The notes under the pieces are model-generated. The model saw only the letters and a program-made list of their open reading frames with translations, did no database searches and was not told the origin of the DNA. From positions 930,001-994,000 of the forward strand of contig JAVHKY010000035.1 of the NCBI GenBank assembly GCA_035079385.1: a stretch of 64,000 nt of DNA. The letters run 5' to 3'. Below, piece after piece: positions 5,763-54,978 of this stretch. Source of the DNA: Aspidiotus rigidus. Lineage: Eukaryota > Arthropoda > Insecta > Hemiptera > Diaspididae. Each line of letters begins with the position of its first letter. The stretch's first letter is position 1. A program made the position numbers and the translations under genes.

Positions 5763-7008
5763 TCAACACATCTGCGAATAATATTTTACACAAACTTCAC
5801 TGTTCTGAACTTCAACGATCGGCCTGGGTTTTAATGCATGTACAGCCATCGATTGATATTCTGACTGATTGTACTTGTCCAGAAGTTGCCCGAAAATTTC
5901 ATACTGGAAGAAAGATTTATTATGAACGTTAGTATTTTTTATTTCTACGTCGGTCACGGATAATTAATTTATCTTCTACCTGTTCAAGAGAGATAGTTTG
6001 GAATTCGCTGAAACTCGGAAAGATATCGAGTTCGCTGTAAATAAACTGTTCCTTATGCTTCAAGCGACATCCTGGGTAACTGTAATACGGTTTATTAGAG
6101 GTGAATAAATCGAACACGAAGGGAAAAGCTTTACTGGCGTTCATCGTGGTGCTAGTATTAGCGAGCTTTATCTGAGACAGAGCCCTCTCTATTTCATCGA
6201 AGGCGGGATTTCTCACATGACCACCCTGAAAAATTTCTAATAAATTATCGCGTAAGATCTAGATTCATCCGCAAGGTTCTACTTACTACGAGCATGGGGC
6301 AATTGAATTTTAAAAAGCCGTCTCGAAAATTATAGCAGTTCTCAGCAGAGCCGTATAACTCATTATAAAATACAACCCAAAATTTTCCAGGGAACCTAAA
6401 TTTCGACACCATTTGTAGCTTCGTTTTAGGTTGATATCACTTGTAACGCGAGTACACAGAAGTCATAAACTTACCAAACACCATCCAGTGTTTCGGCATT
6501 TCGTGTATTAGTAGGAACTCCATCAACGCTGAATGCAAATTGGTCGAAGTTATACGTAGAATTGAACACTGGTCCTCCTGTCACGGTGGCCACTTGGTCG
6601 CCCATCTTGTAGGGCGCTGTATCGACTAAATAAGATCATGGAATAAGTTACACGTATGCACATGCTATCTTGGATTTTTAAATTTTACCATCAACGCCGT
6701 CATTTGTGACTAAGAGCAGAGAATCTCTGTTGATTTTGATTTCAATTTTTGGAAGACACACTGGATAGGCTTGACACGACTTCAGGGCTACTGGGACGGG
6801 TGTTGGAAAACTGTACTGATAGGTCCTGTTGAGTGGGTAGCCATATCCTGAAAAAAACATTGGGATATTTATTTGCGGTAAAAGAGAAAAACAGAGGAGT
6901 GAACTTACTCGGTTCGTACGAAGGACAAGATTTTGAAGTACAGATGGCGCCTTCGATGACTACAGAAACTAAACACAAGGAATAGATAATTTGAGCGAAC
7001 ATCGCCAT
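5763..7008 (-). CDS. Secreted alpha-carbonic-anhydrase-like pseudoenzyme, copy 1
   Basis: Six exons on the minus strand: 6909-7008, 6689-6847, 6475-6625, 6287-6395, 5980-6225 and 5763-5903, all with GT/AG introns of 61-79 bp. They join in frame to 301 codons. Exon 1 starts MAMFAQ, gives a hydrophobic signal peptide and then a CTSKSC motif. Alpha-CA landmarks run in order: VTNDG (for the NNGH strand), GGPVFNSTYNFDQFAFSVDG (for GGPL..Y.L.QFHFHWG), FRDG, HVRNPAFDEIERAL, and YYSYPG (for Y.TYPGS). The zinc ligands are replaced: His94 by Ala, His96 by Ser and His119 by Trp, so I infer no CO2 hydration. Exon 4 is six bases longer than in the 19-55 kb copies. An AATAAA lies downstream near 5710. The homology is my own motif alignment; the function is unknown. 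Confidence 0.8.
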
Positions 7009-7059
7009 TTTGGCTGAAGCAACGAAGAAGCACTACACCTCATCAATTTAATTGCAGAG

Positions 7060-7092
7060 CTTTTTATGTCAGTCGCAAAACTCGTTATCGGT
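7060..7092 (-). promoter_or_regulatory. Promoter block of copy 1
   Basis: On the minus strand an ACCGATAACG box (complement near 7082-7092) lies about 20 bp upstream of a CATAAAAAG TATA-like box (7060-7068), roughly 55 bp before the ATG at 7008. The same arrangement precedes all seven family members. Confidence 0.6.
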
Positions 7093-7717
7093 TTACTATC
7101 GTAGAAAAGAATGTTTATATCGCTTAAATTTTAACTATTCTCTCTCTCTATCTTTCTATTAACGAGCTCGTCAACAGCTGCGGTCAATACTTTGACAGTT
7201 ACAAAAATATGAGCAGGAAATTTTAAGCAATGCAACGAGATCAGTGGAAGTAGAACTCCATGGCACGGAGATAATCGAGCATTTTGGTTTTTGACATGTT
7301 TCATATCTTCGGGTTCGTTGTGTAATACAGGCTTATTCCATAACTCGAGGTCATTTCCTTGAATCTCAAAGATCATTGGTTAAACCTAACTAGAGTTTAT
7401 TCAGTTATGTGACTTTGATCCTGTATTACACAACGAGCCCTCCAAGTTGGCCTGATCTGTAAGTAGGAAACTTTTGACCTTCAAACCAAAAAGTAATTCC
7501 GATGGGGGTAAGGGCTATACATCTTAGTTTTGTGAGATGATGTACCGAGAAGGTCGACACGACTTAAGAGCGAATATTTATAATGAAGGCAGAAGTCGAA
7601 ATATTTATAAGTTCCTAAAGAAGGTTAATGTCTTTGAAGAAGTCATTAAGCCTAAGGTAGATTTCTGAATGACTCCCAGTCCAAATGCATTACATGTCAA
7701 AAAAACATTTTAATTTT

Positions 7718-7733
7718 AACAGGGAACCTGTTT
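7718..7733 (+). repeat. GAA-loop hairpin motif
   Basis: AACAGGGAACCTGTT followed by TTATTTGGGG. A member of the dispersed hairpin family. Confidence 0.65.
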
Positions 7734-7893
7734 TATTTGGGGTGTTGGAAAGAACGTCAGCCATGCGCCGTCCGACAGAGCTCGGCGCTCGAAAATTTTC
7801 CAAGACCCTCGCTATCAAATAGAGCTTAGGCAGGGCCGGATCAAGAGAATTTCGCTGGGGACCAGCGATGGTGGAGCCTCAAAAAGACTTTTC

Positions 7894-8095
7894 AACAGGG
7901 AACCTGTTTTATAGGGGGCTTTTTGAGAAATTTGCCGTGCGCCGTCCAGCAAAAAACTTGGAAAAATTTCGACTCTCGAGCTATATATGATAGGAGGGGG
8001 ACTTGGAAAAATTTCAACTCTCGAGCTATCATATTATATAGCTGGAGATTCGAGAAAAATTTAGACTCTCAAACTATATTACACTAGGCTTATAG
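7894..8095 (+). repeat. GAA-loop hairpin followed by ~45 bp minisatellite units
   Basis: The hairpin AACAGGGAACCTGTT (7894-7909) is followed by GGGGGCTTTTTGAGAAATTTGC. Then come about 2.5 units of the minisatellite GACTTGGAAAAATTTCGACT / CTCGAGCTATATATGATAGG. The hairpin and minisatellite also occur together at 3855 and 56550, which suggests one parent element. Confidence 0.7.
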
Positions 8096-8096
8096 T

Positions 8097-8210
8097 GGTA
8101 TGGGGTAAAATATGCTGTTTAAAGGTGAAAATGGATACCGTTTTATCTCCAGAATTGAAAAGGTATTATGTCGATTTTCACCTTTTAAGAAGCATATTGA
8201 AATTTTGCCT
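8097..8210. mobile_element. Second hairpin of the 3.5 kb MITE family
   Basis: The stem TTTAAAGGTGAAAATGGATA pairs with its near complement (AATCGATTTTCACCTTTTAA side). The loop ATCTCCAGAATTGAAAAGGT matches the loop at 3568-3590 with one change. The outer arms differ from those of the 3.5 kb copy. Confidence 0.65.
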
Positions 8211-8465
8211 GAAACGATCAGCAGAATGGGAGCCTTGTTACATGTGTAGAAAGATACCATCCTCCAATTTCTGTCCATATTATCATTCATTTAGATTCAA
8301 TTGAAATTCAGCCTGAAACGATCAGCAGAATTGGAGCCTTACATTCTGCTGATCGTTTCAGGCTGAATTTCAATTGAATCTAAATGAATGATAATATGGA
8401 CAGAAATTGGAGGATGGTATCTTTCTACACATGTAACAAGGCTCCCATTCTGCTGATCGTTTCAG
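8210..8465. repeat. Near-perfect ~250 bp palindrome without spacer
   Basis: The sequence left of about 8335, containing CCTGAAACGATCAGCAGAAT, is the inverted complement of 8340-8465. The arms are about 120 bp with only a few mismatches. It forms the inverted edge of the 104 bp array. Confidence 0.85.
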
Positions 8466-9236
8466 ACTGAATTTTAATTCAATCTAAATGGATGATAATA
8501 TGGACAGATATTGGAGAATGGTTTCTTTCTACACATGTAACAGAGCTTCCATTCTGCTGATCGTTTCAAGCTTCAGACGGATGATGATATTATGGACAGA
8601 AATTGGAGAATGGTATCTTTCTACGCATATAACAGAGCTTTCATTCTGCTGATCGTTTCAAGCTGAATTTCAATTGAATTCAAACGGATGATAATATGGA
8701 CAGAAATTGGGGAATGGTATCTTTCTACACATGTAACAAGGCTCCCAATCTGCTGATCGTTTCAGGCAAAATTTCAACTGAATTCAAATATATGATAATA
8801 TGGACAGGAATTGGAGAATGGTATCTTTCTACACATGTAACAGAGCTTACATTCTGCTGATCGTTTCAGGATGAATTTCAATTGAATCTAAATGGATGAT
8901 AATACGGAGTACGGACAGAAATTGGATGGTATCTTCCTACACATGTAACAGAGCTCAATTCTGCTGATCGTTTCAGGCTGAATTTCAATTGAATTCAAAT
9001 GGATGATAACGTGGGCAGAAATTGGAGAATGGTATCTTTTCTACTCATGTAACAGAGCTCACATTCTGCTGATCGTTTCAGGCTGAATTTCAATTGAATT
9101 CAAATGGATGATAACGTGAGCAGAAATTGGAGAATGGTATCTTTCTACACATATAACAAGGCTCCCATTCTGCTGATCGTTTTTGGCTAAATTTCAATTG
9201 AATTCAAATGGATGATAATATGAACAGAAATTGCAG
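8340..9236. repeat. Tandem array of ~104 bp units
   Basis: The core CTGCTGATCGTTTCA recurs at 8346, 8451, 8552, 8646, 8750, 8854, 8961, 9066 and 9170. Spacings are 94-107 bp, mostly 104. Each unit also carries GGACAGAAATTGGAGAATGG and TCTTTCTACACATGTAACA. There is no coding potential. The array ends abruptly inside a unit at about 9236. Confidence 0.9.
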
Positions 9237-9789
9237 GAATCCTCGCCCCTAACTCTAAAATTTACGAGTTCACGTTAACTCCGCGAGTTGCCGCCCTCCT
9301 CCCAACCCGCCAGAAAGGAACCCGAGACATAATTGTGAAAATATCCGAGTTCCACGATTCTTGTATACTGTATCCTTTCTCTTTTTTTAATAATGAACTA
9401 TGAGGTCATCAGCTGGTGACATCATCTATCTTGACCTCGAGTCCGATTCTGATATCTTTCCATGTTTCACTCCTCTCTCAAAAGTCATATTCTCCTCCTC
9501 AACTACGTTCTTTTCCTCATAACTTGTACTGATCAGAAGTCAAAATATTTTCAAGTTTCTCTCTTCATACTTTATATTGCATAGCTTAGAGGTTGAGTTT
9601 CATTAAAATCCCGCTCCTCAAAGATATTAGCTCGAAAAGGTCAGTTAATCTCTTAAGCCGCTAAAGTAAGTCTAAGCCTCCGCCTTAGTTTAAATAACTT
9701 CTTCATCGTAACGCAAGAAGAGCGTATTCCATGTCTTACACAATCTATAACGTCATCATTGATGTAAGAGAATAGTCTGAAAGGTCTTG

Positions 9790-11526: not shown

Positions 11527-12897
11527 TCACACAACTGCGGAATAATTTACACGAACTTCACTGTTCTTAACTTGAACGTACGGTCTGGGTTCTAATGCAT
11601 GAAGAGGCATAGCTGAATATTCTGACTGATTGTATTTGTCCAGAATCTGGCCGAAAATTTCATACTAGAGTAAAGATAATACAAAAATCAGTATTTTTTA
11701 TTCCTTGGTCAGCAATTGCAGACGCGGATCCAGACGATCACTTTAGGAGGGAGGGGGGAGGAATTGCCCCCATTTGCTCCCCTCCGGATCCGCGCCTGTA
11801 ATTGATAATTTAGTAATAATACATTCTTCTACCTGTTCAAAAGAGATACTTTGGACTTCGCAGAAATTCGGGAAAACTTCGATTTCGCTGAAGATGCACT
11901 GTTCCATACCCTTTATACGACATCCTGGGTAACTGTAGTAGGGTTTATTAGAGGTAAATTTATCCAACACGAAGGGAAAAGCTTTACTGGCGTTCATCGT
12001 GGTGCTACTATTAGCGAGCTTTACTTGAGACAGAGCCCTCTCTATTTCATCGAATGCGGGATTTCTCACATGACCACTCTAGTTTAGTGATAGAAAAGTA
12101 GTGATAAATTATCGCGTGATTAAATTTTATCCACAAGGTCGTACTTACTACGAGAAAAAGGACGCTGAATTTTAAAAAGCCGTCTCTAAAATTATAACTG
12201 TTCTCGGCAGAGCCGTATAGCGCGTTATAAAGTGTGATAAAAAATCTTCCAGGGAACCTAAAAAAGCCTCGTTGTAGATTGCGTTGTAAGCGCGTGTACA
12301 CGGAACTTATAAACTTACCCAACACCATCCAATGTGTCAGAATTTCGAGTGTTAGTAGGAACTCCATCAACGCTGAAGGCAAATTGGTCGAAGTAATAAG
12401 TAGAATTGAATACTGGTCCTCCTGTCGCGGTGGCCACTCGGTCGCCTGTATTGTAGGGCGTTGCAATGACTAAATAAGAGCATGGAGTAAGTTACATATC
12501 ATGCACATGCTATCTGCCTTAATTGCTATCTAGCCTTCTTAATTTTACCATCGGCGCCATCATTGGTGACTAAGAGCAGAGAGTCTTTATTGATTTTGAT
12601 CTCAATTCTCGGAAGGCACACTGGATAGGCTTCAGACGATTTGTGAGCTATCGGGACGGGTGTTGGAAAACTGTACTGATAGGTTCTGTTAAGTGGGTAG
12701 CCATATCCTGGAAAAAAAAAAAACGTTGGCATATTACTTTGCGATAGAATTAGACTACGTAAAAGAGAAAAACAGAAAGGATTACTCGGTTCGTAAGAAG
12801 GACAAGATTTTGAACAAGATTTTGAAGTACAGATGGCGCCTCCGATGACTGCAGAAACTAAAAACAAGAAATAGGTAACTCGAGCGAGCATCGCCAT
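11527..12897 (-). CDS. Secreted alpha-carbonic-anhydrase-like pseudoenzyme, copy 2
   Basis: Exons on the minus strand: 12786-12897, 12549-12707, 12319-12469, 12149-12257, 11833-12078 and 11527-11664. They join in frame to 304 codons. Closest to the copy at 5763-7008 (MAMLAR start, CTSKSC, FDQFAFSVDG, RNPAFDEIERAL, YYSYPG). Zinc ligands are Ala, Ser and Phe in place of His94, His96 and His119. Oddities: exon 1 has an extra SKSC-type duplication; the exon 4 FNCP motif has become FSVL; and the exon 6 VCV motif has become VRV, so two otherwise conserved cysteines are gone. Intron 1 (12708-12785) is 78 bp, a multiple of three, and open in frame, so retention would only insert 26 residues. Intron 5 holds an 80 bp MITE. 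AATAAA lies near 11485. It may be evolving under weak constraint. Confidence 0.75.
11719..11798. mobile_element. 80 bp hAT-type MITE inside the last intron of copy 2
   Basis: The ends CAGACGCGGATCC and GGATCCGCGCCTG are inverted repeats. The flanks CAATTG and TAATTG form an imperfect 6 bp duplication. The same intron of the copy at 5763-7008 lacks it and provides an empty site. The insertion lies outside the splice signals, so the gene should be unaffected. Confidence 0.75.
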
Positions 12898-12984
12898 TTC
12901 GGTGGACAGATTGCCACATATAATGTGTTCCTTCAGCTGAGACTACGACGCGCTACACTTCATCAATTTAATTGCCGGGCTTTT

Positions 12985-13015
12985 TTTTATGTCAGCCACA
13001 AAACTCGTTATCAGT
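12985..13015 (-). promoter_or_regulatory. Promoter block of copy 2
   Basis: On the minus strand CTGATAACGAG (complement 13004-13014) precedes CATAAAAAAAAG (complement about 12980-12991), about 85 bp before the ATG at 12897. It matches the block upstream of copy 1 except that the first base of the ACCGATAA box is changed. Confidence 0.55.
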
Positions 13016-14935: not shown

Positions 14936-14939
14936 ATAT

Positions 14940-17074: not shown

Positions 17075-18065
17075 ACTTATTTATTGCACAATCTTTGAAA
17101 TTCATTTACCGCACATTCTTTGAAATTCTTTTATCGCGCCTTGGAAATTCATTCATTGTATGTTATTTGACATTCATTTATTGCGTGTCGTTTGAAATTC
17201 ATTTATTGCAAGTTATTTAAAGTCCATTTATTGCGCATTCTTCAAAATTCATCTATCACGTCTCATTTGAAATCCATTAATCAAGCATTGTTTGAAATTC
17301 ATTCATCACATGTTGTTTGAAATTTATTGATTGCGCGTTGTTTGAAATTCTTCTATTGCGTATTTTTTTTTTGCGTATTGTTTGACATTCAATTATTGCA
17401 CATGCGCAACAATTGAATGTGAAACAGCGCACAATCAGTGGATTTTAATGAATGCGCAATAAATGAATTTTAAACAAGGTACAAAAATAAATTTTGAATG
17501 ACGGGCAATAGATGAATTTCAGAGAACCATTGGTAAATGAATGTCAAATAACGCGCAATAAATGAATTTAAAACAATGCGCAATGAATGAATGTCAAAGA
17601 ATACGCAATAAATGGATTTTAAACAATGCGCAATAAATGAATTATAAAGAACGCGCAATAAATGGATTTTGAATAACGCGCAATAAATGAATTTTAAACA
17701 ATGCGCAATGAATGAATTTTAAAGAATGCGCAATAAAAGGATTTTGAATACGCGCAATAAATGAATTTCAGCGTAATAAATGAATTCCAAACAATGGGCA
17801 ATAAATGAATTTCAAAGAACAGGCAATAAATGAATTTTAAACAAGGTACAATAAATAAATTTTGAATAACGTGCAATAGATGAATTTCAGAGAACCGTTG
17901 GTAAATGAATGTCAAATAACGCGCAATAAATGAATTTCAATGAATGCGTGATAAATGAATGTCAAATAACGCGCAATGAATGAATGCCAAAGAATGCGCA
18001 ATAAATGAATTTTTTTCAAAGAATGCGCGATGAATGAATGCAAAATAATGCGCAATCATTGAAAT
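17075..18065. repeat. Large inverted array of ~29 bp units (GCGCAATAAATGAATT)
   Basis: From 17075 to about 17400 the unit reads TTTGAAATTCATTTATTGCG. From about 17405 to 18065 the complement, GCGCAATAAATGAATTTTAA, is repeated. The turn lies at TTGCACATGCGCAACAATTG (about 17396-17415). The whole could fold into a hairpin of several hundred base pairs. The low-complexity open frames across it are artefacts of the repeat. Confidence 0.85.
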
Positions 18066-19089: not shown

Positions 19090-19240
19090 TTTTATGATTT
19101 TCACTTGACCCGTTATCGGTTTACTGTCATAAAAATTTCTTATCTCGTCCGAATTTCAAATTTTTGTGGCTTTTTGTTCACCAAGAATCTCTTTTCTACT
19201 CTACGATCGGTAAACTAATTATTTCCTTTTTTTTCTCTTC
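19090..19240 (-). promoter_or_regulatory. Orphan promoter block of the carbonic-anhydrase-like family
   Basis: On the minus strand the order is AGATAAGAA (complement 19137-19145), ACCGATAACGG (complement 19110-19120) and TCATAAAA (complement 19090-19097). Spacing equals that of the promoters at 20881-20940, 31046-31104 and 40157-40216. No family start codon or exon follows. It sits about 360 bp past the stop of the copy at 19506-20787. Confidence 0.65.
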
Positions 19241-19505: not shown

Positions 19506-20787
19506 TCACAAATGCGAGACAAGTTTCACACAAAATTTACTATTTCTAACTTGAACAATAGGTCTGGGATTTTGTTCATGTATAGCCGCTGCACTGTATT
19601 GCGATTGGTTGTACTTATCATAAATTTTTCCAAATGTCCCGTACTGAAATCACACACGCAAATCGTTTTCATTTCCAATAATCAAAAAGAATACACACGC
19701 ATCGATTGATTAGATTCTACCTGGTTATAAGAAATGCTTTGGTATCTGCCAAAACTCGGAAAAACTTCGAGTTCGTTGTAGAGGAAGTACTGTTGGTCCA
19801 CGTATTGAGCCCCAGGGAAACTGTAGTACCATTCACTCAACAAGAACGGTTGCAATATAAAAGGTAAGACGTCCTTGGCTAAAGCCGTTGTGGTAGAGTT
19901 AGCGGCACTGACTCTATAAAGAGCCTCTTGCATTGGAGTAAATTGTGGATTAGCCACATAACCCTCCTAATCGTCTCATACGATGTAATAAAATATCAGA
20001 TAAAGAACTAAGGTCTAAATCAACAGTATTCTTAGACTCACCACTTCCGTCGGACAATCAAACTTTAAAATCCCGTCTCGGTGACTGGAATAATTAGAAC
20101 CGTATGCGTCATTCTTGAAACTGGCCCAAATTTTAACTGGGTACCTGAATTTCAGTGTAGAATCGGTCTTAGATACGAGAATATTTGAGCTAGTGAGTTG
20201 GCCGATTCGACTCACCCGACATCATTTAACGTGTCAGCGGTTCGAGTATCCTCGGGAACTCCATCAGCGGTAAAAGATATTCCTAGGAGAGAGTAGACAA
20301 AATTCCCTACTATTCCTCCTGTAGCAGTGGCTACTCGCTGCCCCTTTACATAAGGACTGATATCAACTACGGAAAAACATCACTCTATATCATTATCGAA
20401 ATTTTAATGAAATATAATTTGTCTCGATATAATTTCACCTGATATCCCAGTATTATTGACTAAGAGTAAAGCGTGTTTATCGATACGAATTTGTACTTTT
20501 GGACGGCATATAGGATACGCGTATTTCGTTTGGATAGCGACGGGAACGGGGGTAAGAAAAGGATACGGATCGAACCTTTTGTCGGGATAGCCATATCCTA
20601 AAATAAGTAGTATTCGGATTTATAATTTTACTCCATCAAGAATTGACTAAGAGGAAAGAAGTATTCAGGAATATTTACTTGGTTCAGAAGTGGGACAATC
20701 TTTTGTAGAACATGTAAAGCCTTTAATAAGTGCAGGAAGGAAACACAAAAAGTACGCAATCCGAGTCAACACAAGATAACGCGACAT
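19506..20787 (-). CDS. Secreted alpha-carbonic-anhydrase-like pseudoenzyme, copy 3
   Basis: Exons on the minus strand: 20679-20787, 20439-20597, 20216-20366, 20042-20144, 19721-19966 and 19506-19643. They give an uninterrupted 301-codon product. It starts MSRYLVLTR with a hydrophobic signal peptide, then TCSTKDC. RYGYPDKRF opens exon 2, and YPICRPKVQIRID and LLVNNTG follow. GGIVGNFVYSLLGISFTADG replaces the alpha-CA strand that normally carries QFHFHWG, so His94 is Ser and His96 is Thr. VKIWASF puts Trp at His119. HRDG, NPQFTPMQEALYRV, DVLPF and YYSFPG correspond to the C-terminal CA half. NSTT in exon 5 is a potential N-glycosylation site. Expected to be extracellular; ligand unknown. Confidence 0.8.
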
Positions 20788-20880: not shown

Positions 20881-20940
20881 GTTTTATGATTTCTGCGTAG
20901 CATGTTATCGGTCTACTGACATAAAAGAAAATTCTTATCT
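20881..20940 (-). promoter_or_regulatory. Promoter block of copy 3 (two GATA-type sites plus TATA-like box)
   Basis: Minus-strand order is AGATAAGAA (complement 20932-20940), ACCGATAACA (complement about 20903-20912) and TCATAAAAC (complement 20881-20889). The last lies about 95 bp before the ATG at 20787. The two WGATAA cores are about 28 bp apart. Confidence 0.65.
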
Positions 20941-29681: not shown

Positions 29682-30961
29682 TCACAAATGCGAGACAAAA
29701 TCCACACAAAATTTACTATTTCGAACTTGGACAAATGGTCTGGGTCCCAGCTCATATATAGCAGCAGCTCTGTATTGTGACTGGTTATATTTATCAAGAA
29801 TGTTTCCAAATGTCTTGTACTGAAATCACACGCGCACATTGTAGTCATTTCTGGTAATCACTGGAGCACATCATGCATATCGAGAGATTAGGTCCTACCT
29901 GTTCACAAGAAATGGTTTGGTATCTACCAAAACTCGGAAAAACCTCGAGTGCGCAGTAGATTATGGCCTGCTGAAGCGGGCATTCGGCGCTTGGATAACT
30001 GTAGTACCATTCACTCAACAATAATGGTTGTGATACAAAGGGCAAAATGTCCTTGGCTTTGATTGTAGTGGTAGAATTGGCGGCTTTGACTTCATACAGA
30101 GATTTTTGGATTCGAGTAAATTGTGGATTAGGCACATAACCCTCCTAGACTCGTATAAAAACAAAGAACTAGGCATTCGATTCAAGTAAATTAGCCATGA
30201 TCTCAATCGTAGAATTAAACTCACGACTATTGTTGGACAGCTAAACCTCAAAAGGCCGTCACGGTGGCTGGAGTAGTTAGAACCGTACGCATCATTCACA
30301 AAGTGGGCCCAAAATTTAATTGGTACCTATATTTTGGTAGAAGTAGAACAGTCTTAGATTATCAGGATATCTAATCGAAGTGAGTTGGTTTTCTTACCCT
30401 TGACCGTTTAGCGTATCAGCGGTGCGAGTATTATAGGGAACTCCATCAGCGTTATAAGATATCTCTTGGAAGGAATAAGTATAGTTACCTACTATTCCTC
30501 CTGTAGCGGTGGCCACTCGCTGGCCCTTCTTATAGGGAACAAATGTAACTATGGAAAGATATAGAGAACATGTCAATCAAAATGTATGATGTTCCGTCAA
30601 GGGGTAAATTTTCTATCAATATTTTACCTTGTTCCCCGGTATTATTGACTAAGAGTAAAGCGTGTTTATCAATTTTAATTTCTATTTTCGGACGGCATAT
30701 AGGATGGGCGTATTCTGTTTTCAGAGCAACAGGAATGGGCGTAATAAAAGAATACGGATCAAACCTATTGTCTGGATAGCCATACCCTGAAATAGGTATT
30801 GAGATTTAAAATTCTTTTCAAAAAGTTGGCCGAAAACAATAGAAGAGTTTACTTGGTTCAGACGAAGGACAATTTTTTGGATAGCACGCAAGCCCCTCGA
30901 TAAGTGCAGGAAGGAAATATACAACATATGCAGTCCAATTCAACACAAGATAACGCGACAT
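29682..30961 (-). pseudogene. Alpha-carbonic-anhydrase-like pseudoenzyme, copy 4, frameshifted
   Basis: Exons on the minus strand: 30853-30961, 30628-30786, 30398-30548, 30225-30326, 29899-30144 and 29682-29819. Exon 4 is 102 bp where the other copies of this subfamily have 103. One base is missing near 30318-30324, and the frame then meets a stop in the same exon (near 30300). All splice sites and the other exons are intact, so it is a recent pseudogene or a sequencing error. Apart from this it resembles the copies at 19.5 and 38.8 kb: MSRYLVLN start, YGYPDNRFDPYSF, YSFQEISYNADG (His94 to Ser, His96 to Asn), Trp at His119, YYSYPS, FPSFGRYQTIS. The final G of YYSYPG is also changed to S, and KNC keeps the N-terminal cysteine. 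Confidence 0.75.
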
Positions 30962-31045: not shown

Positions 31046-31104
31046 TTTTATGAGTTCTTTGTAACACGTTATCGGTCTATTGACGCGAAAAAAAATTCTT
31101 ATCT
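31046..31104 (-). promoter_or_regulatory. Promoter block of copy 4
   Basis: Minus-strand AGATAAGAA (complement 31096-31104), ACCGATAACG (complement 31067-31076) and TCATAAAAGG (complement 31044-31053). The last lies about 83 bp before the ATG at 30961. The promoter is preserved although the coding frame is broken. Confidence 0.6.
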
Positions 31105-35944: not shown

Positions 35945-37495
35945 CTATTTGATTTCTTTTTTGGTTTTTAATATCTTTCTTATATATCCATCCAATTTTT
36001 GGTGGCATTCTCCGTTCTGCAGGCACTGTCCCAATTCCTGTGTAGTTATTTTAGCATCCCCCCTGATACGATCAAAATTTTTGCATTTTATAAAGGTGTG
36101 ATCCGGGTCATCATCAGAATTTAAGCATTCCCTGCATTGACTATCATTTATAATATTGAAATTTTTGAGGTACGCTGCAAAATTCCCATGTCCCGTCAAA
36201 TACTGTGTTAAAAAATAATTTGATTTCAATTTCTTGTTTTCAAGTCTTATCCCTATGTCTGGAATCAATTTAGCCGTTCTCCTACCTGTCTTTTCTTTTT
36301 CATATTGCTCCTGCCAATTTTTAATTGTATCTAATCTTATTGTTTTTATGCTTTCTACCATTTCTTTTTTCGTTATTTTATTTTCTTTGAATTTAATTTT
36401 TAATGTTTTTATTTTGTTAGTTTGGCTTAATTGCAAATCAATTGGGGTTATTCCAGCTATAACGTGTGAGGCTGTATGAGATACTGTTCTGTATGCTGAA
36501 ATTATTCCTATTAATACTGTCCTTTGGAGTGATTTTAGTTTCTTAATCTCAGTATTCCTAAGTTTCTCAAAATAAGCAAGGGAGCCATATTCTATTATTG
36601 AGCGAAAAAGTGCATTGTACAATATTTCTCTTTTATATGTGTCCATACCAAAAGTGTTACCATATAAAGCCCGAATTTTATTATAATATTTTCTTAATTT
36701 GTTTGTAATGTATTCTACGTGTTTATTAAAGTTTAGGTTTTGGTCGATGATTATTCCTAGATATTTCATATGGAATATTATTTTCTCCTGCCCCAACTTT
36801 ATTTTTCCTTCCATTCTTTTTCGAAATTCGTATTTTTTATGTCTCCGAGATAGGAAAAGCATCTGTGTTTTATTCGGATTGAGTGTTAGGCCTAAGTATT
36901 CCAGTTTTAGTTTTATCATTTCTATCTTATCATTTATTAATTGAGAGTCAGTCATTTTATTTATTCCCGCTATTATCAGCAGGTCATCGGCATAGCTCAA
37001 GAGTTTGAATTTTTTTGTTTCCTTTACTGCTTCATGTACTTCAGTCATTGCAATATTAAACAATGTTGGCGATAAGGCTGAGCCTTGTGGTACTCCCGAG
37101 GATAAAGCATGTTCTAACTTTAGGTTATTATCTTTGTCAAAGAAACATATTTTTCTGTTTTCAAAGTAGCTCTGAATAATTTGTATTAATTGACTATTAA
37201 TCTCCTTTTTCTCCATTGTTTCTAGTAATCTTGACCATTTGACCCAGTTGAAAGCCCCTGTAATATCAAAACTGACTAAAATTACATGTTTAAATATTTT
37301 TCTAAATTGGTCCAGCGTTTTAGTTAATTCAATCAAGGCTGTTTCTGTGGATCGCCCTTCTCTAAATCCATATTGTTGTTCATGAAAAATGCTAAGTTTT
37401 TCAATTTCTTGATTAAGATAATATTTTATTATTTTCTCATAAACTTTTCCAAGGGTGGGCAGTAAGGTTAGTGGTCTATATGAGTTACGAGTGTC
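35945..37495 (-). mobile_element. R1-clade non-LTR retrotransposon, 5'-truncated reverse transcriptase
   Basis: One uninterrupted frame on the minus strand from about 37495 to the stop at 35945. It opens with YRPLTLLPTLGKVYEK and YGFREGRST (fingers), then SFDITGAFNWVKW (motif A), SGVPQGSALSPTLFNIAM (motif B) and LLSYADDLLIIAG (motif C, YADD). The thumb region has HMKYLGIIID. The C-terminus has ISAYRTVSHTASHVIAG, LTGHGNFAAYL and a C-x2-C...H...C zinc knuckle, a layout typical of R1/TRAS-clade elements. An in-frame TAA lies just upstream near 37503, and the N-terminal endonuclease and ORF1 are missing, so this is a dead-on-arrival insertion. The intact remaining frame suggests a recent event. 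R1-clade elements are known mainly from arthropods. Confidence 0.9.
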
Positions 37496-38783: not shown

Positions 38784-40075
38784 TCACAGGTGCGAAACTA
38801 GATCCACACAAAATTTACTATTTCGAACTTGGACGAATGGTCTGGGTTTTAACTCGTGTATAGCAGCACCTCTGTATTGTGACTGATTATAATTATCGTA
38901 AACCTTTCCAAACGCGTTGTACTGAAATCATATACGCGCAAATCGTTGTCATGATAATCAATCTTAGCGAAAAGAATACAGGTATGTCGAGTGCTCGAAT
39001 CCCACCTGATTATAAGAAATGCTTTGCAATCTGCCGAAACTCGGGAAAACGTCGAGTGTATCGTAGATAAAATATTCCTGATTCTGGTATCCAGCTCCTG
39101 GGTAACTATAATACCATTCGCTCAACATCAATGGTTTGAATACGAAGGGCAAAACGTCCTTGGCAAATACCGTAGTTGTGGAATTAGCTTCACTGACTCT
39201 GTACAAAGCTTCTTGGATTGGAGTAAACTGTAGATTAGCCACATAACCCTCCTAGTCTCGTACGAAGTAATATAATATTAAATTAATTAAGAAATAATTG
39301 AATTAGTCACGATCTCGTCCATAAAATTAGACCTACCACTTCACATGGGCAGTCAAATTTATAAACCCCATCACGGAAGCTGGTATAGTTATCACCGTAT
39401 AGAATATTCTTAAAGTTGGCCCAAAATTTAACTGGATATCTAAATTTCAGCAGAAATAGGACAGTCTTAGATTTTTAGGATATCTAATTAAAGTGAGTTG
39501 GTTTTTTTACCCTTGACCGTTTAGCGTATCAGCGGTGCGAGTATCCTCGGAAACTCCATCAGCGGTATAAGACATTTCTAGGAAAGAGTAAATAAACTTG
39601 TCTACTATTCCGCCTGTAGCGGTGGCTACCACCTGGTCCTTCACTAAAGGACTAAAATTAACTAGTTGGAAAAATAACGCACGATAAATCAAGCTCTTAA
39701 TGATGGAAATTCGATAACGATGTCAAATTTACCTTCTTCTCCAGTATTATTGACTAAGAGTAGAGCATGTTTATCAATTTTAATTTGTACTTTTGGACGG
39801 CAGATAGGATAAGCGTATTTCGTTTCGAGAGCCACAGGTATAGGCGTATCAAAAGGATACGGTTTAAACCTGTTATCTGGGTAGCCATACTCTGAAATAG
39901 GTAATGAGATATTTTATATAGGGCTTTGCCTGCGGAAAATAAAATATTATTAGAATAATTTACTTGGTTCAGACGTAGGACAATTTTTTGGAGAGCATGA
40001 TCTGTAACCCTTGATGAGTGCAGGAGCGAAACACAACAAGTATGCTATTCGAGTCAACACAAGATATCGCGACAT
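38784..40075 (-). CDS. Secreted alpha-carbonic-anhydrase-like pseudoenzyme, copy 5
   Basis: Exons on the minus strand: 39964-40075, 39733-39891, 39511-39661, 39337-39439, 39006-39251 and 38784-38921. They join to 302 intact codons, the extra residue being in exon 1 (YRSCSPKNC). Introns are 71-85 bp. CA-fold landmarks are LLVNNTG, GGIVDKFIYSFLEMSYTADG (His94 to Ser, His96 to Thr), VKFWANF (His119 to Trp), FRDGVYKFDCP, NLQFTPIQEALYRV, DVLPFVF and YYSYPG. AATAAA lies near 38740. Its 3' flank resembles that of the copies at 19.5 and 29.7 kb. A predicted extracellular glycoprotein-type product with no conserved catalytic residue of the CA family; partners unknown. Confidence 0.8.
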
Positions 40076-40156: not shown

Positions 40157-40216
40157 CTTTTATGATGTTTTCGTGAAACGTTATCGGGTTACTGACATAA
40201 AACGAAATTCTTATCT
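40157..40216 (-). promoter_or_regulatory. Promoter block of copy 5
   Basis: Minus-strand AGATAAGAA (complement 40208-40216), CCGATAACG (complement 40179-40187) and TCATAAAAGG (complement 40156-40165). The last lies about 80 bp before the ATG at 40075. Confidence 0.65.
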
Positions 40217-42111: not shown

Positions 42112-44262
42112 ATGCGTAAATTTTTAGTTGAAAAGAAAGAAACGAATTCAACGAGTGAGACTGTACGTGTACCTTCAACTCCTTCAAGTGAGTAAAAATG
42201 TCTAGTTCTGCTCCCAAGTCTTTGGCTGACAAACTCCCTCTCCCTCCTTTTTTTACCATCTTCTTCCTTCTTCCAGATTGTAAAAAAAGAAAATTATCTT
42301 CACCTCCCTCCTCAGACAGTACTGAAACAGTTGGAGATACCTGTGTAGTTGATGATTCATGTGCTTTAAAGGGAGAAGCGATCGGTAATTTGTCTACGAG
42401 TAACTCTGAAACTAAGAGAACTACACCACTGGAGAGGCACAATGTATTATGGCCGATAGTGTGGAATGAGTCACAAATTAAGCTGTTCTCTGAAAAGTAT
42501 TTTTGGTTAAGTGCTCGCGAACGAAAACTTGGCTGCTTAGTTTGCAGTCAGGCTAAATCGGTTTTATTACTGAAAGAGGGATGTCGCCTGGCAAATGAAT
42601 GGATAAATTTTGAAATCGAAGCTGCTGCTAGTACACGAGACAACCAGCTGAGTTCTTTGCGAGCTAAACTGAAACGTCATGAAGGGAGCAGTAGTCATCA
42701 GTTGGCAGTCAATATTTCATAAAATAAAGAGAAAGAAGTAATTGAGAAAAAAATAGAGAAACTGTCGGAGAAGGCGTTAATGAAGTGCTCTTTGCTCATT
42801 AGGACAGCGTACAATGTGGCGAAAAATAAAAGGGCATACGTAGAATACGAGGAATTGGTACAACTTCAGAAGTTGAATGGCTTGAATTTGGGAATTTCTC
42901 TTTATTCAAGAGATACTGCCACCAAGATGGTTGATGTGATAGCTGTTGAGATGAGACGTAGGCTGGTTAAAAAGATGACCGAAACAGAGGCTAAATTCAG
43001 TCTTCTCATTGACGATTCGACAACTTTATCGAATAAAAGCACATTGATATTATACATACTTTCTACATTCAATACGGACCACCCTATTTATGCTTTTTTT
43101 GAGTTATTGGAATTAGAAGCTCAAGACGCTGATGCTATCACTGAAGCAATATGGAAATGTTTTGAAAATTATGGGCTTTCTGAGGATTTTTTGAAGAGAA
43201 ATATGGTTGGTTTAGCAACAGACGGTGCAAGTGTGATGACTGGTTGTAAGTCTGGTGTTTCGGCTCAAGTGAGAAGCAGAATTCCTCATATATTCACGTT
43301 TCACTGCATGTCCCACAGACTTGAACTGTCAGTAAATGACGTGAAGAGTGATGTTGTAGGTGTCAATCGCTTCATCTCTTTCATGGATAAATTATATTCT
43401 TTATATTCGGCATCAGCGAAAAACAGTCGAGCATTACAGAACATATCTGCTGAACTTCACGGTCAGTTTCTAAAAATCGGTCGTGTATTAGGCGTAAGAT
43501 GGGTTTCTAGCAGCTTCAAGACTGTAAAAGCCGTGTGGGTATCGTATGAAGCACTGCACAATCATTTCTCAAGAAATGCTGCGGATAAGGAGTTTTCATC
43601 TACTGAGCGCGCTCTTTTTCTAGGACTGAAAAAAAAAAATTGAATCGTCCGAGTTTTTAGAAGATCTAGGTTTTATGTATGATATACTTCATGAAATATC
43701 AATCTTGAGCCAAATTCTCCAAAATCGTGAGACTACCATAATGAAAGCTATTCATGAAATTAGAAGGACTATACGAATTTTGGCATCATTGAAAGAGAAT
43801 AGCGGTGAGAAAAGCACTGAAGTTGCTCGTGCAATTGCTGAGCATAAATTTCACAAAATTGAAATCAGGGCGCCCAGGAAAACAAATATAAACCAAAAAC
43901 AATTTGTACAGGCATTGATTGACAGAATATCTAGACGTTTGATAAATGTTGAAACTGATGATCCCAGTGAGAAGAGGGGTTTGGCTCTAATATCCGATTT
44001 AAATGTTGTCCAAGAACAGTTTTTAGCTACTACTCCTTCAGTTGACTTTCGGCTACAAAATCCGGGATCAAAATTTCACCAGTTCATTCGTTCTCTTCCA
44101 TGCTCTACAGCTGAATGCGAGAGAGGGTTTAGCACAATGAATAATATTATTACAGATCATCGAGTCGGTTTATCTATCGCTCACGTCTCCAATCTCACTT
44201 TCCTGGCTCTAAATGGTCCACCCGTGGAGTCTTTTAATCCACTTCCGTATGCCAAATTGTGA
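42112..44262 (+). mobile_element. hAT-superfamily transposase gene, two exons, one stop and one frameshift
   Basis: Exon 1 (42112-42187, MRKFLVEKKE) ends at AA|GTGAGT. After an 89 bp intron with a pyrimidine tract, exon 2 starts at 42277 and runs to 44262. Features in order: a TTF/BED-like zinc finger (LGCLVC...LKRHEGSSSH); LLIDDST with the first catalytic Asp; LATDGASVMTG with the second; FHCMSHRLEL (C-x2-H); GVRWVSS; and the C-terminal dimerisation block TAECERGFSTMNNI with the conserved Glu region. The layout matches the ZNF862/KIAA1586-like branch of hAT proteins. It is broken by TAA at 42720-42722 and by a frameshift in an 11-A run at 43629-43639. Both are light damage, so inactivation is recent, or the poly-A shift is a sequencing error. 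No terminal inverted repeats were found with confidence. Confidence 0.88.
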
Positions 44263-47630: not shown

Positions 47631-47639
47631 ATTCTTAAT

Positions 47640-48745
47640 AGATTACAAGAACGCGCATTGGATGAATTAAAAGAACAAACAATTAATAAAATCAAGAAAC
47701 GCGCAATAAATGAATTGAAACAATGCGCAATAAATTGATTAAAATAACGCGTAATAAATGGATCAAATGAACGCACAATAAAGGAATTAAAAGAACACGC
47801 AATTAATGAATTAAAAAAACGCGCAATAAATGAATTAGAAGAACGCACAATATTAATAAATTACATGAACGCGTGTTGAATGAATTGAGAGAATGCGCAA
47901 TAAATGAATTGAAATGACGCGCGATAAATGAATTAAATAGATAAGCAATGAATAGATGAATTGAAAAAAAAAAAAAACGCGATGAATGGATTAAAATAAT
48001 GCGCAATAAATGGAAAGAACGCTCGATAAATGAATTAAATGAATGCACAATAAATGAGTTTGAAGAACGCGCAGTAAATGAAATCAAAGAATTAAGTGAG
48101 AAATTTAAAGAACGCGTGATAAAGGAATTAAAAGAATGTGCGATAAATAAATTGAAAAAAAGGTGTGATAAATGGAATAAAAGAACGCCTGGTAAATGGA
48201 CCAAAATAAAGCGCAATAAATTAAAATAAAGTGCAATAAATAGATTAAAATAACGCGCAATAAATGAGTTTAATTAAAGAATGGGCAATAAATGAAATCA
48301 AAGAAAGCGCCATACATGAATTTAAATAATGCAAAATAAATGAGATTCAAGAACGTGTGATAAAGGAATTGAAAGAACGTGCGAAATGAATTTAAAAAAA
48401 TTTATGATAAGTGAAATCAAAGAAAGCATAATCAATGAGATTAAAGAATGCGTAATAACTGGTTCAGAAAAAATGCGTAATATATGTATCAAAAGAATGG
48501 GTGATGAAGGAATTGAAAAAACGCGCAATAAATGAATTAAAAGAAGTTGTGATAAGTGAAATCAAAGAAAGCGCAATCAATGAGTTTAAAAAATGCGCAA
48601 TAAATGGAGAGAACGCTTGATAAATGAATTAAAAGAATGCGCAATGAATAAATTTGAAGAACGTGAAAGAATAAGAGTTAAATAGATTAAAAATAGAGGT
48701 AATAAATGGATTTAAAGGACACGTAACAAATGAATTTAAAGAACC
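47640..48745. repeat. Array of ~30 bp units (GCGCAATAAATGAATTAAAA)
   Basis: About 35 degenerate units of AAAGAACGCGCAATAAATGA. The core GCGCAATAAATGAATT is the same as in the inverted array at 17075-18065, here in a single orientation. Open frames across it encode only repetitive peptides such as (FNSFIARS)n and are artefacts. Confidence 0.85.
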
Positions 48746-49661: not shown

Positions 49662-50600
49662 AACACCGGAGCGCCTGCCCCATCGAGAATACGACCTAAC
49701 GTACACCAAAGAGCTGCTTACGTCAGTCTGATCATGAAAAATCTCTCTGCTGAGCCAACTCCGCATTTCCATTGAACTTCCTGTAAAAGGTTTTTAAAAC
49801 TCATTTGAGTATACCTGCAACTTACGCCTATGCGACCTACCTAACTTGCGGTCGCGCACGTCCCTCGCCATAGACTGTTCCTTCAAACATTGCGGGGAAT
49901 TGACCAGACCTTCACCTATTCTCTCATCTTGACACCAACACAGGGCCTTGCCCCAGTTGTCACACTGGTAGAACTTTCTGATCATTTCCATTTTACTAAC
50001 TATGTAATGTCGAGTCCCCATCAGCCGCCCAATAGCAGCCTGATGGCTACAGGTTCAGCAACCCTACGATTGCCCCGCAGTGTCCACTTTAGTGGGGTAG
50101 AACCGAGTCCACTACCACCTTATCTGAGGCGGCCAACCGCAGCCTCGGATTTGTGCGACAAGGCCCCTGGCACCTAACTCAGCCGGTACCCCTTAACCTG
50201 ACTAGCCGATGCCTATCACCGCACAAACCCCATTACAAGAGACTCTGTGATGACGCCCCGTCCCTGCCATGAAGTCCATCTCATGGCCTTTTGACCTCAA
50301 GGGTCCCAGCCCCTGCTCGGGCTTCCACTGTAGGATGCAGCTCCAGTGCTCATTAGGGGAACAGACTGTCCCCCTGACCACTGACAAGACTCGCATTACT
50401 TATTCTACCCTTAGATCAGCTTGGTCCATCGGCTACCTCGGGTCTCGGCTAACTATCCAGGTCCTATCCTTAACAACCACTCCAGTACCGCCCTGAACCG
50501 ACGATCGTCACCTAGGACACCAGACGTCAGCAAACAATACAGCAGTAGGCCACCTTGAGCCACACTCGGTGTCAATCACAAATCCTATTTGCCGTCCACC
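49660..50600. other. GC-rich island of unknown origin
   Basis: Clearly richer in G+C than any neighbouring kilobase. Overlapping open frames lie on both strands (49890-50177 plus, 50269-50496 plus, 50202-50396 minus) with no domain that I recognise. Borders are fairly sharp near 49660 and 50560. It could be retroelement-derived or an untranslated RNA gene. Confidence 0.4.
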
Positions 50601-51870
50601 TCTACTGATTCTTTCTCGTGTGCGTGCCGCAAGACATAACACTAAGATAATCTTATATTGAAGTATCCCTAACTGACAGCAGACGAATGTAAATTACTGA
50701 ACCACTCGCCAATACAATATCAAAAGCTCGATATGTATAATATCCACAATAAGAGTCTAAACACAACCACAATAACTACCGATACCAACAATCAACAAAA
50801 CTTCGACGCAACAGAAATATGTCGACGCCTAATACTCCGACAAACGATTGTGATTCCACCGAACTGATTTACTAATAAACAGAGCAGTTTGAAACCTACC
50901 CTTGTCGATCGCCCGTAGTTTCGTCCGGTCGCGTCCCTGGACCCGGCTACCCGCGCCAGCCTATTTCTTATAATCCGATATAGGATTTTTTTTGCGTTAA
51001 AGATCGTTGACTGTAGAACGACACAATCATCGCTCAATTACCTACACAATGGTAAACGTCGAAAGTGCAGTCAGCTCGTCTAAACCTAGGCACATGTGTT
51101 TGTCGTAAAACCTTTCCTTCCTTTCTTTTCAAGAATGAGAAATCTCGCGACTATTATTTTATAGATGTTCTCTTCACACTGACGTGACCGATGAACACCT
51201 AATAATCTTAGTAAGTTTCCAATACATGCTACAATATTTAAACAGCCGGACATTCACTCATCGAAAAATGTATTCAGTATTTACAATTGTAAGTCCAGGG
51301 AGAGGAGGATATGATTATGGAATGCAAGAGGTTGACCGATTCATTTGCAGGTTTGAAGAATGAGTAAAAATTTGCAACGCACCTCGTTTGGTACACTTGC
51401 TAGGTCCTTTCTATCATTTATCCTTTTTTTTATTAACTACGTAAATTGAAAAACGAAAGTTTGATGTTATTTATGGGAAGATTCTTCAATTTTGTAGTTG
51501 ATGTACAAATCACATGGTGAAACACACTTCGGTCTAGATACAAATTAACAGAATGTATAAAATATGCTTTGTCATATTCTCTTTTTTTAGATCTACAGCG
51601 CTAGTTCTTTTTTGGCCCAAATTTCATCGCTTTCTATAATTTTATAAAATTAGACTAGCTCAGAAGTGATCTAAAAGGCGAGAGAAATACGAAGTTTTTG
51701 ATTGACAGACCTGAAAAAAGATCACTACGGCAGATCAAGATTTTAAAGAAAAAGTGAAATTTGAAAACATATTCTCCAGGCTGTGGCTAAGGAAGGAAGC
51801 TAGAGAGGGGAAGGTCAGGAGACGAGCGAGAGGAAATATTATATCCGCTTCAACGAAACAACTAAAATAA
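50600..51870. other. Intergenic sequence, nothing recognised
   Basis: Returns to AT-rich composition towards the promoter of the gene at 52000. No supported gene. Confidence 0.4.
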
Positions 51871-51880
51871 AGCGCGAATA

Positions 51881-51930
51881 AGATAAGAATATCATTTACC
51901 GATAACTTGTCTAGCCAAAGTTGTAAAAGG
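51881..51930 (+). promoter_or_regulatory. Promoter block of copy 6
   Basis: AGATAAGAAT (51881-51890), ACCGATAACTT (51898-51908) and TTGTAAAAGG (51921-51930), about 70 bp before the ATG at 52000. The spacing between the two GATA cores is about 18 bp, shorter than on the minus-strand copies. Confidence 0.65.
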
Positions 51931-51999
51931 AGCGATATCGATCGATCGCTCGGGCAGTATTTCCCATTCTCGCCTCTTATTGTGGTTACTTTGCCAAAA

Positions 52000-53310
52000 A
52001 TGTCGCAATATCTTGTGTTTACTCGGATTGTATCTTTTCTATGTTTCGCTCCTGGACTCATCCAGGGTTACACATGCTCTACACGAAACTGTCCTACGTC
52101 TGAACCAAGTAAATTTACTAGTAATTTTTTTTTCGTAGCCAACACGTATAGAACAAAATTATAAAAGTCAATACCTATTTCAGGGTACGGCTACCCTGAC
52201 AACAGGTTTGAACCGTATCCTTTTATTACACCCATTCCCGTCGCTCTTCAAACGAAATACGCGTATCCTATATGCCGACCAAAAGTACAAATTAAAATCG
52301 ATAAACATGCTCTACTCTTAGTCAATAATACTGGAGAAAGGAGTAAGTTCTTATTGACATAAGGAATAGCATATTGAATTCCGATCATTATATAGTCGTG
52401 TATGTTTTTCAATAGTTGTATTTAGTCCTTATATAGAGGGCCAGCGAGTAGCCACCGCTACAGGAGGAGTAGTAGACAATTTCATTTACTCTTTTCTGGA
52501 AATATCTTATACCGCTGATGGAGTTCCAGAGGACACTCGCACCGCTGATACACTGAATGACGTCGGGTGAGGAATTAATGAATCACTTATGTTGAATAGC
52601 CTCAAATCTAAGACTTTACATCTCTCATCAAAATTCAGCACCCCATTGAAATTTTATGTGAACTTCAAGAAAGATGAATACGGTGACAACTATGCTACCT
52701 TTCGAGACGGTCTTTACAAATTCGACTGCCCAGGAATAGTTGTGAGTTTAATTTTATTTATAAATCACAGCTAATTCACGTATAATATTAAATGCTTATA
52801 GTTTTTTATTTTCATATTTTATTACTTCTTATGAGATTAGGAGGGTTATGTGGATAATCCACAGTTTACTCCAATCCAAAAAGCTCTGTATGACGTTAGT
52901 GCCTTTAATTCTACCACTACTGTAAAAGCCAAGGACGTTTTGCCGTTTGTATTCCAACCTTTCTTGTCCAGTGAATGGTACTATAGTTACCCAGGAGCTC
53001 AATTCCCAAACCAGCAGTACTTTCTCTACAATACACTCGATCATTATCCGAGTTTTGGCAGATACCAAAGCATTTCTTATAACCAGGTAGGATCTAATCA
53101 TTCGACATGTATGTATTCCTTTAGATAAAATTTATTGTCGGAAATGACAACGATTTGTGCGTGTGGTTTTAGTACAACACATTTGGAAAGGTTTACGATA
53201 AGTATAACCAGTCACAATACATGTGCGCGGCTTTACATGAGCTCAAACCCAGACCATTCGTCCAAGTTAGAAATAGTAGTGTTTGTGTGGAAATTGTATC
53301 GTATTTGTAA
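52000..53310 (+). CDS. Secreted alpha-carbonic-anhydrase-like pseudoenzyme, copy 6
   Basis: Exons 52000-52108, 52184-52342, 52416-52566, 52639-52741, 52841-53086 and 53173-53310 encode 301 intact codons. I chose MSQYLVFTR as the start because it aligns with all other family starts and gives a clean signal peptide; an upstream in-frame Met at 51907 lies inside the promoter block. After cleavage the chain begins near YTCSTRNC. CA landmarks: LLVNNTG, GGVVDNFIYSFLEISYTADG (His94 to Ser, His96 to Thr), LKFYVNF (His119 to Tyr), FRDGLYKFDCP, NPQFTPIQKALYDV, YYSYPG and FGRYQSIS. The gatekeeper TTPP loop is replaced by a Gln-containing loop. AATAAA lies near 53353. Very similar to its neighbour at 53629, 319 bp downstream in the same direction. 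Confidence 0.82.
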
Positions 53311-53511
53311 GAGGTTTCTTTTTAAAGGTTGAAACCTATCTATTTATTTGAGAAATAAAATTCAATAAATGTACATTATCCTACATCAAGGATAATATTT
53401 GTTTTTTTTCGAGCTAGAGAGGGGAAGGCCAGGAGTAGAGCAAGAAGAAAATAGTATATATGCACTTTGACGAAACAAGGAAACAGCTAGAACCAAAATA
53501 AAGCACGAATA

Positions 53512-53560
53512 AGATAAGAATTTTATCTACCGATAATTTCTTCAGCCAAAATCATAAAAA
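53512..53560 (+). promoter_or_regulatory. Promoter block of copy 7
   Basis: AGATAAGAA (53512-53520), ACCGATAAT (53529-53537) and TCATAAAAA (53552-53560), about 70 bp before the ATG at 53629. It lies only about 200 bp after the stop of the preceding gene, giving the likely original spacing of the array. Confidence 0.65.
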
Positions 53561-53628
53561 GAGTGGTAAATCGATCGCTCGCGCAGTATTTCTCTTTCTC
53601 GCCTCTCATCGTAGTTACTTTGCCAAAA

Positions 53629-54978
53629 ATGCCGCAATATCTTGTGTTGACTCGGATTGTATCTTTTTTATGTTTCGCTCCTGGACTTATCCACGGTTAC
53701 ACATGCTCTACACGAAACTGTCCTACGTCTGAACCAAGTAAACTTACTAATAATTCAATTTTTCATGGCCAACACTTATAGAACAACATTATGAATTTCC
53801 GCAGACAAAGCTTAGGAAAAAAAACATTATAAAATATCTCATTACTTATTTCAGGGTACGGCTACCCAGACAACAGGTTTGAACCGTATCCTTTTATTAC
53901 ACCCATTCCCGTCGCTCTTCAAACCAAATACGCTTATCCTATATGCCGACCAAAAGTACAAATAAAAATCGATAAACATGCTCTACTCTTGGTCAACAAT
54001 ACTGGAGAAGAGGGTAAGTTCATGTTGACATGAGTAATACTCGTAGCATATTGAATTTTCGATCATTATATCGTTGAGTATGTTTTTCAATAGTTCAATT
54101 TAGTCCTTATATAGAGGGTCAGCGAGTAGCCACCGCTACAGGAGGAGTAGTAGACAATTTCATTTACTCTTTTCTAGAGATGTCTTTTTCCGTTGACGGA
54201 GTTCCTGAAAACACTCGCACCGCTGATACGCTGAATGATGTCGGGTGAGGAATTAATGAACTCACTTATCTTCTACACTACAGCCTCAAATTTATGACTG
54301 TACATCTCTTATCAAAATTCAGGACCCCATTGAAATTTTGGGTGAACTTCAAGAAAGATGACTACGGTGACAACTACACTAGCTTTCGAGACGGTCTTTA
54401 CAAATTCGACTGCCCAGGAATAGTTGTGAGTTCAATTTTACTTAATAATCATAGCTAATTCAGTTGTTTATTTTCATATTTTATTACTTCTTATGAGATT
54501 AGGAGGGTTATGTTGATAATCCACAGTTCACTCGAATCCAAAAAGCTCTGTATAAAGTTAGTGCCTTTAATTCTACCACTACTGTAAAAGCCAAGGACGT
54601 TTTGCCGTTTGTATTCCAACCGTTCTTGTCGAGTGAATGGTACTATAGTTACCCAGGAGCTCAATATCCGCAACAGCAATACTTCATCTACAATACACTC
54701 GATAATTACCCGAGTTTTGGCAGATACCAAAGTATTTCTTACAACCAGGTAGGACTTAATCACTCGACATGTAGGCCTATGTATTCCTTTTGATAAAATT
54801 GATTGTCGGAAATGACAACGATTTGTGCGCGTGATTTCAGTACAACACATTTGGAAAGGTTTACGATATGTATAACCAGTCACAATACAGGAGCGCGGCT
54901 TTACATGAGCTCAAACCCAGACCATTCGTCCAAGTTAGAAATAGTAGTGTTTGTGTGAAATTTGTATCGTATTTGTAA
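53629..54978 (+). CDS. Secreted alpha-carbonic-anhydrase-like pseudoenzyme, copy 7
   Basis: Exons 53629-53737, 53855-54013, 54094-54244, 54323-54425, 54503-54748 and 54841-54978; 301 codons, no interruption; start MPQYLVLTR. Signal peptide about 1-23; TCSTRNC follows. Using human CA II numbering for comparison: NNGH corresponds to NNTG at residues 84-87; Q92-F-H94-F-H96 to E118-M-S120-F-S122; E117-L-H119 to K144-F-W146; KYG (126-128) to DYG (153-155); and G196-S-L-T199 to G226-A-Q-Y229. All three zinc ligands and the gatekeeper Thr199 are therefore absent, while the scaffold residues around them persist. Possible N-glycosylation sites at N85, N197 and N268. Mature cysteines are few (two N-terminal, C67, C170, C294). 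Forms a head-to-tail pair with the gene at 52000. Confidence 0.82.

Follow-up and report, generated by a model that had tools for sequence, protein, structure and literature searches.

Within a 64,000-nucleotide (nt) stretch of the genome of the insect Aspidiotus rigidus (contig C35, positions 930001-994000; hereafter the window) lies an array of seven genes, g1 to g7, that appear to descend from an alpha-carbonic anhydrase (alpha-CA) and to have lost its whole zinc and catalytic site. It is highly probable, in our assessment, that their products are at once secreted, acatalytic, derived from a carbonic anhydrase (CA), and maintained. The array belongs to a larger family spread over several contigs of the same genome, and its gene structure, its conserved scaffold residues, and its comparison with catalytic-type CAs of the same species speak for its CA ancestry.

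The seven genes are built on one plan and fall within positions 5763-54978 of the window. All seven consist of six exons separated by GT..AG introns in phases 1,1,2,0,0, and their exon lengths vary little across the array (100-112, 159, 151, 103 or 109 [102 in g4], 246, and 138-141 nt). Five are encoded on the minus strand: g1 (5763..7008, with exons at 7008-6909, 6847-6689, 6625-6475, 6395-6287, 6225-5980, and 5903-5763), g2 (11527..12897), g3 (19506..20787), g4 (29682..30961), and g5 (38784..40075); g6 (52000..53310) and g7 (53629..54978) are on the plus strand. Reading is open through all six exons in every gene except g4, giving products of 301 amino acids (g1, g3, g6, and g7), 302 (g5), and 304 (g2). 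The proteins of g1 and g2 are 77% identical and those of g6 and g7 91% identical, and identity falls to 44-50% between the g1/g2 group and the other open genes. In six of the seven genes, an AATAAA signal lies 31-43 nt 3' of the stop codon. A tblastn search of the window with the six open proteins returned 150 high-scoring segment pairs, none of them beyond the seven genes.

The exception, g4, shares the exon boundaries of the other genes, but its frame is lost because exon 4 measures 102 nt instead of the 103 nt found in its four nearest relatives (g3, g5, g6, and g7). Inspection of the g4 introns by eye found no alternative GT-AG choice that restores the frame. The remaining exons of g4 retain ratios of nonsynonymous to synonymous substitution (dN/dS) of 0.34-0.37 against g3, g6, and g7; the break would accordingly be recent or a fault of assembly, with either gene decay or an indel in the assembly as its possible cause. 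The original prediction, a seven-member family of six-exon genes with identical intron phases encoding seven proteins of 301-304 residues, was therefore borne out in its gene models and phases; six of the seven proteins stand, g4 being frame-broken as assembled, and seven is the window's share of a family that has at least 24 loci in the genome.

Descent from an alpha-CA is indicated most strongly by comparisons within the same genome. Two genes matched by the Pfam model for alpha-CAs (PF00194), one on contig C28 (C28a) and one on C30 at 8.16 Mb, have the full set of ligands and look, by sequence, like catalytic-type CAs. In BLASTP, g1 matched C28a with an E value of 2e-11 (27% identity over 174 columns), and hhalign aligned a ten-member family set (the six open window genes, g8, g9, and one member each from C30 and C34) to these two CAs with a probability of 98.9 and an E value of 2.6e-17 over 244 columns. 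Sequence identity between the family and the catalytic types is only 21-25%. Four internal introns, of phases 1,2,0,0, are common to the family and both CA genes at positions 0-3 alignment columns apart. Those after exon 3 (column 150, phase 2) and exon 5 (column 272, phase 0) occupy identical columns in both CA genes; the intron following exon 2 (column 100, phase 1) coincides exactly with that of the C30 gene and differs by three columns from that of C28a; the one following exon 4 (phase 0) is displaced by one column. The window genes have the gene structure of a CA.

Profile searches agree in part. Taken singly, g1 (44.9 bits) and g2 (50.3 bits) exceed the PF00194 cut-off of 27 bits, and six members of the ten-member set match the model at E <= 10 (best 3.2e-13), the limit to which per-protein Pfam matches were reported. 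Searched by itself against solved structures, g2 matched only carbonic anhydrases, six chains at E <= 10 with a best value of 0.0045. Together, these results argue that the family belongs by descent to the alpha-CA superfamily. A search of the six-protein alignment against about 5.8 billion proteins yielded 3691 word-sharing candidates, none at E <= 0.001; because shared 5-residue words were required, that search reached close relatives only.

The catalytic site, by contrast with the scaffold, has gone. Residues were counted in an alignment of 20 family rows and three CA rows, from which g4, the C34_c copy (lacking exon 3), and three C20 copies having only exons 2-4 or 2-3 were left out. Of the zinc ligands, neither His94 (20 rows) nor His119 (19 rows) survives in any family row, and His96 persists in one of 20 rows, the C14 copy; of the gate-keeping residues, Glu106 is absent from all 20 rows and Thr199 from all but that of g8. 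None of the six open window proteins has a zinc histidine, Glu106, or the Thr199/200 pair, and their residues at the three ligand positions read A-S-W, A-S-F, S-T-W, S-T-W, S-T-Y, and S-S-W. In the copies outside the count, the readable pieces, inspected by eye, likewise carry no histidine at the ligand places. The scaffold residues, on the other hand, were almost invariant: both glycines of the GG pair, the Asn of the NP motif, the Gly of the PG motif, and the Gln of the SxxQ motif were kept in 20 of 20 rows each, and the Asp of the DG motif in 18 of 19. As judged from sequence, catalysis is excluded. An R-H-Q triplet was found in none of the 20 family rows, and orthology to CA X/XI was dismissed on the ligand triplets; the family would accordingly be neither a catalytic CA nor, by its triplets, a carbonic anhydrase-related protein (CARP) of the CA VIII/X/XI type.

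The products are likely to be secreted. Each of the six open proteins has a single hydrophobic segment at its N terminus, and beyond it no run of 19 residues exceeds a mean hydropathy of 1.42 (hydropathy being the sole measure here), and each carries 4-6 N-X-S/T sites. Their coding sequences point to purifying selection on the protein: dN/dS was 0.17-0.42 in every one of the 15 pairwise comparisons among the six open genes, none exceeding 1, although the ratios between g1/g2 and the rest are rough because dS there (1.25-1.62) is near saturation. The original prediction had taken the array for an expanded, noncatalytic branch of the alpha-CAs with motifs in CA order. The motif order held on the alignment, the profile check proposed with it gave significant matches (g1 and g2 to PF00194), and the placement as a whole is supported by these matches together with hhalign, the introns, ligand loss with the scaffold kept, and purifying selection.

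The window accounts for less than a third of the family: matches to exon 5, with g2 and g7 as queries against the whole assembly (441,100,917 bases, 102 contigs), mark at least 24 loci, a lower bound, in four clusters and two single loci. The C35 cluster has nine loci, eight of them within 70 kb and one about 250 kb further; C20 has three near 14.75-14.79 Mb, with a fourth place having exons 2-3 only; C34 has five; and C30 has five near 7.6 Mb. The single loci are on C14 and at C20:1.79 Mb. No cluster common to the family and the catalytic-type CA genes was seen. A tree of the 20 family and three CA rows, all from this genome and with no CA10/11-like row, placed the CA rows on one side of a branch (support 100/99) and resolved three deep subfamilies: C35 with the C20 copy C20b (97/98), C30 (100/100), and C34 with C14 and the 1.79-Mb C20 locus (99/99). 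This tree would fit catalysis having been lost once, before the family spread, but does not prove it, since it is unrooted and long branches come together in it.

A short module recurs upstream of the window genes. The pattern YGATAAY-N16-RTAAAA, combining GATA-like and TATA-like boxes, lies before all seven, spans exactly 29 nt, and starts 82-123 nt before the ATG: on the minus strand at 7062..7090 (g1), 12985..13013 (g2), 20882..20910 (g3), 31046..31074 (g4), and 40158..40186 (g5), and on the plus strand at 51900..51928 (g6) and 53531..53559 (g7). The g9 gene has a 38-nt version. Among control segments, the module occurred in 14 of 2322 overlapping segments of the window and in 10 of 1176 at other loci, for a pattern drawn from these kindred genes before counting. 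It stands out because the rest of the upstream region is so different, the last 150 bases being only 43-56% identical between g1/g2 and g3-g7. We infer that GATA factors and TBP would bind it. The window holds 11 matches, four of them away from family genes.

We propose that an ancestral alpha-CA gene retained its exon layout and scaffold residues while losing the entire zinc and catalytic site, and that it multiplied in clusters. Its products would be secreted, N-glycosylated proteins of the CA fold, with family members perhaps expressed jointly in a single tissue under the control of a GATA-type factor; without catalysis, they might use the former active-site face or the loops to bind a protein, glycan, matrix, or mineral surface. 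An extracellular binding or structural role is favored because catalysis is excluded by sequence, secretion is likely, and constraint is evident; it is the most likely function, though a tentative best guess that falls short of even chances. More speculative still is a broader possibility, that a dead enzyme gave rise to a whole secreted system of three old subfamilies and at least 24 loci, with a promoter module common to the window array, in which the CA fold would serve as a general scaffold for extracellular recognition or building, as lectin or immunoglobulin folds do elsewhere.

Several results weigh against the reading of these genes as a maintained, coregulated family of CA descent with a binding or structural role. 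Searched singly, four of the six open genes (g3, g5, g6, and g7) gave no Pfam match at E <= 10. A profile of the six open proteins found no PDB chain at E <= 0.01, and at E <= 10 its nine chains, all carbonic anhydrase II, were weak (best 0.041). The near-saturated dS blurs part of the selection estimate; the tree is unrooted, and its subfamilies sit on long branches that meet, which drew a warning from the program. The upstream pattern was taken from the genes in which it was then counted, and these are kin; moreover, an extra copy with the same 29-nt span lies at 19118 on the minus strand with no family exon seen behind it, perhaps a relic of a lost gene copy. Finally, nothing in the evidence distinguishes a binding function from one in structure, storage, or immunity.

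Among other roles, immune or symbiont recognition, with diverse secreted copies attaching to microbes or other foreign surfaces, would fit the many clustered copies, the signal-like N termini and N-glycosylation sites, and the three deeply different subfamilies; two upstream GATA-like boxes are, as a generality, compatible with expression in haemocytes or gut. We regard it as unlikely, given an overall dN/dS well under 1 in every pair, a measure that is pairwise and not site-wise. A bulk storage protein or secretion filler is slightly less likely again. Tandem, compact genes with one promoter module would suit such a product, and yam dioscorin, a CA-family protein, is discussed as a storage protein (PMC5536067); the amino acid composition of the six open window proteins, however, is without striking bias (tyrosine 6.9-9.6%), and the three subfamilies are too divergent for a simple filler. 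It is improbable that the products act as acatalytic partners or decoys regulating the organism's catalytic CAs, a role proposed for secreted cnidarian CARPs (PMC4981384); catalytic-type CAs are present in this genome, but they are a handful against at least 24 family loci, share only distant sequence identity with the family, and were not seen to cluster with it.

That the array is a decaying set of relics without function is very improbable. Besides the frame break in g4, the first exon of g8 was not recognized and long introns split some C20 copies; six of the seven window genes and g9, by comparison, are open with intact splice sites, and relics as an account of the whole array were dismissed on the dN/dS range. 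Chance resemblance of short motifs without kinship, to which the four genes lacking a Pfam match of their own and the weak PDB matches might lend themselves, is scarcely credible and was dismissed on PF00194 scores above the cut-off and on the BLASTP, hhalign, and intron agreement with CAs of the same genome.

Other features of the window and genome were recorded alongside the array. Mobile-element sequences in the window comprise a reverse transcriptase frame of a long interspersed nuclear element (35945-37495, minus strand, 516 amino acids; PF00078, E 1.6e-37), for which the best of 115 listed relatives was 77% identical over 55% and lay on a metagenome contig; a hAT-like transposase in pieces (42192-44262, plus strand; Dimer_Tnp_hAT at 25.5 bits against a cut-off of 21.4, with DUF659 below cut-off); and a reverse transcriptase fragment below the Pfam cut-off (55180-56332, minus strand), which to us has a Penelope-like look. 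A PDZ-domain exon (150-488, plus strand; PF00595, 50.3 bits) may be the final exon of an MPDZ/Patj-like gene. Tandem arrays occupy 2640-3197 (148-base unit), 8342-9233 (104), 17404-18013 (25), and 47642-48663 (24), and another unit, of 45 bases, appears at 7956, 15258, and 46413. A scan of the window found no tRNA and no Rfam match. Elsewhere in the genome, a copy on C65 (L012, minus strand) that closely resembles the C28 carbonic anhydrases has an in-frame stop in exon 5, and a pair of oppositely oriented PF00194 matches (C52:10266022, plus strand; C52:10298676, minus strand), separated by about 33 kb, have three or four internal stops each.

Animals are known to have only a few acatalytic CA genes each, with roles that are largely unsettled. 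The 24 or more acatalytic loci here, some of them under strong conservation, offer a natural series of paralogues in which to study what the CA fold does beyond the enzyme and to ask whether catalysis was lost before the expansion. A plain Pfam search misses such families: the exon-wise, genome-wide PF00194 search gave 26 matches, none of them at the loci of the acatalytic family.

Compared with known systems, the family shares with the alpha-CAs (PF00194, including the C28 and C30 genes) ancestry, motif order, intron phases and near-identical intron positions, and scaffold residues; it differs in its low identity, in its expansion in arrays, and, in the six open window proteins, in the absence of the zinc histidines, Glu106, and the Thr199/200 pair. 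A mainly open-access literature search, mostly by title and abstract, found no large array of fully acatalytic secreted CAs, which agrees with the original statement that no such array is described, although smaller related cases are in print (PMC4981384, PMC4265532, PMC6639325). Secreted cnidarian CARPs are reported to be polyphyletic and acatalytic, with one or two of the three histidines lost and some genes in tandem with catalytic CAs (PMC4981384). They are secreted acatalytic CAs, as the window products would be if the signal suggested by N-terminal hydropathy is real; the cnidarian genes are scattered among catalytic ones, whereas the window genes lose all three histidines and every array member read is without the triad. 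The same paper reports R-H-Q or near variants at the ligand positions of CA VIII/X/XI-type CARPs (PMC4981384). These have an acatalytic CA domain in common with the window family, whose triplets, listed above, differ from that pattern. Exons at L005 and L007 (C4) and L008 (C21), which we take to resemble CA10/11-type CARPs, stand apart from the array family. The mussel nacrein MgNACR is reported to be a secreted CA with mutated zinc ligands (PMC6639325), and the calcareous-sponge SciCA4 and L-CAs are secreted with mutated ligands and one or more histidines remaining, the L-CAs with added domains (PMC4265532); these share with the window family altered zinc ligands and, as predicted for the latter, secretion, and they differ in being few genes each. 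Dioscorin is multigene and of the CA family, and CA activity is reported for the protein in PMC7358276. It resembles the window family in its several genes and its kinship, and differs in being a plant protein with reported activity. The CA-like domain of RPTP gamma/zeta binds contactin outside the cell; there, however, CA-like domains lie inside large membrane receptors, whereas those described here would be stand-alone, secreted products of gene arrays.

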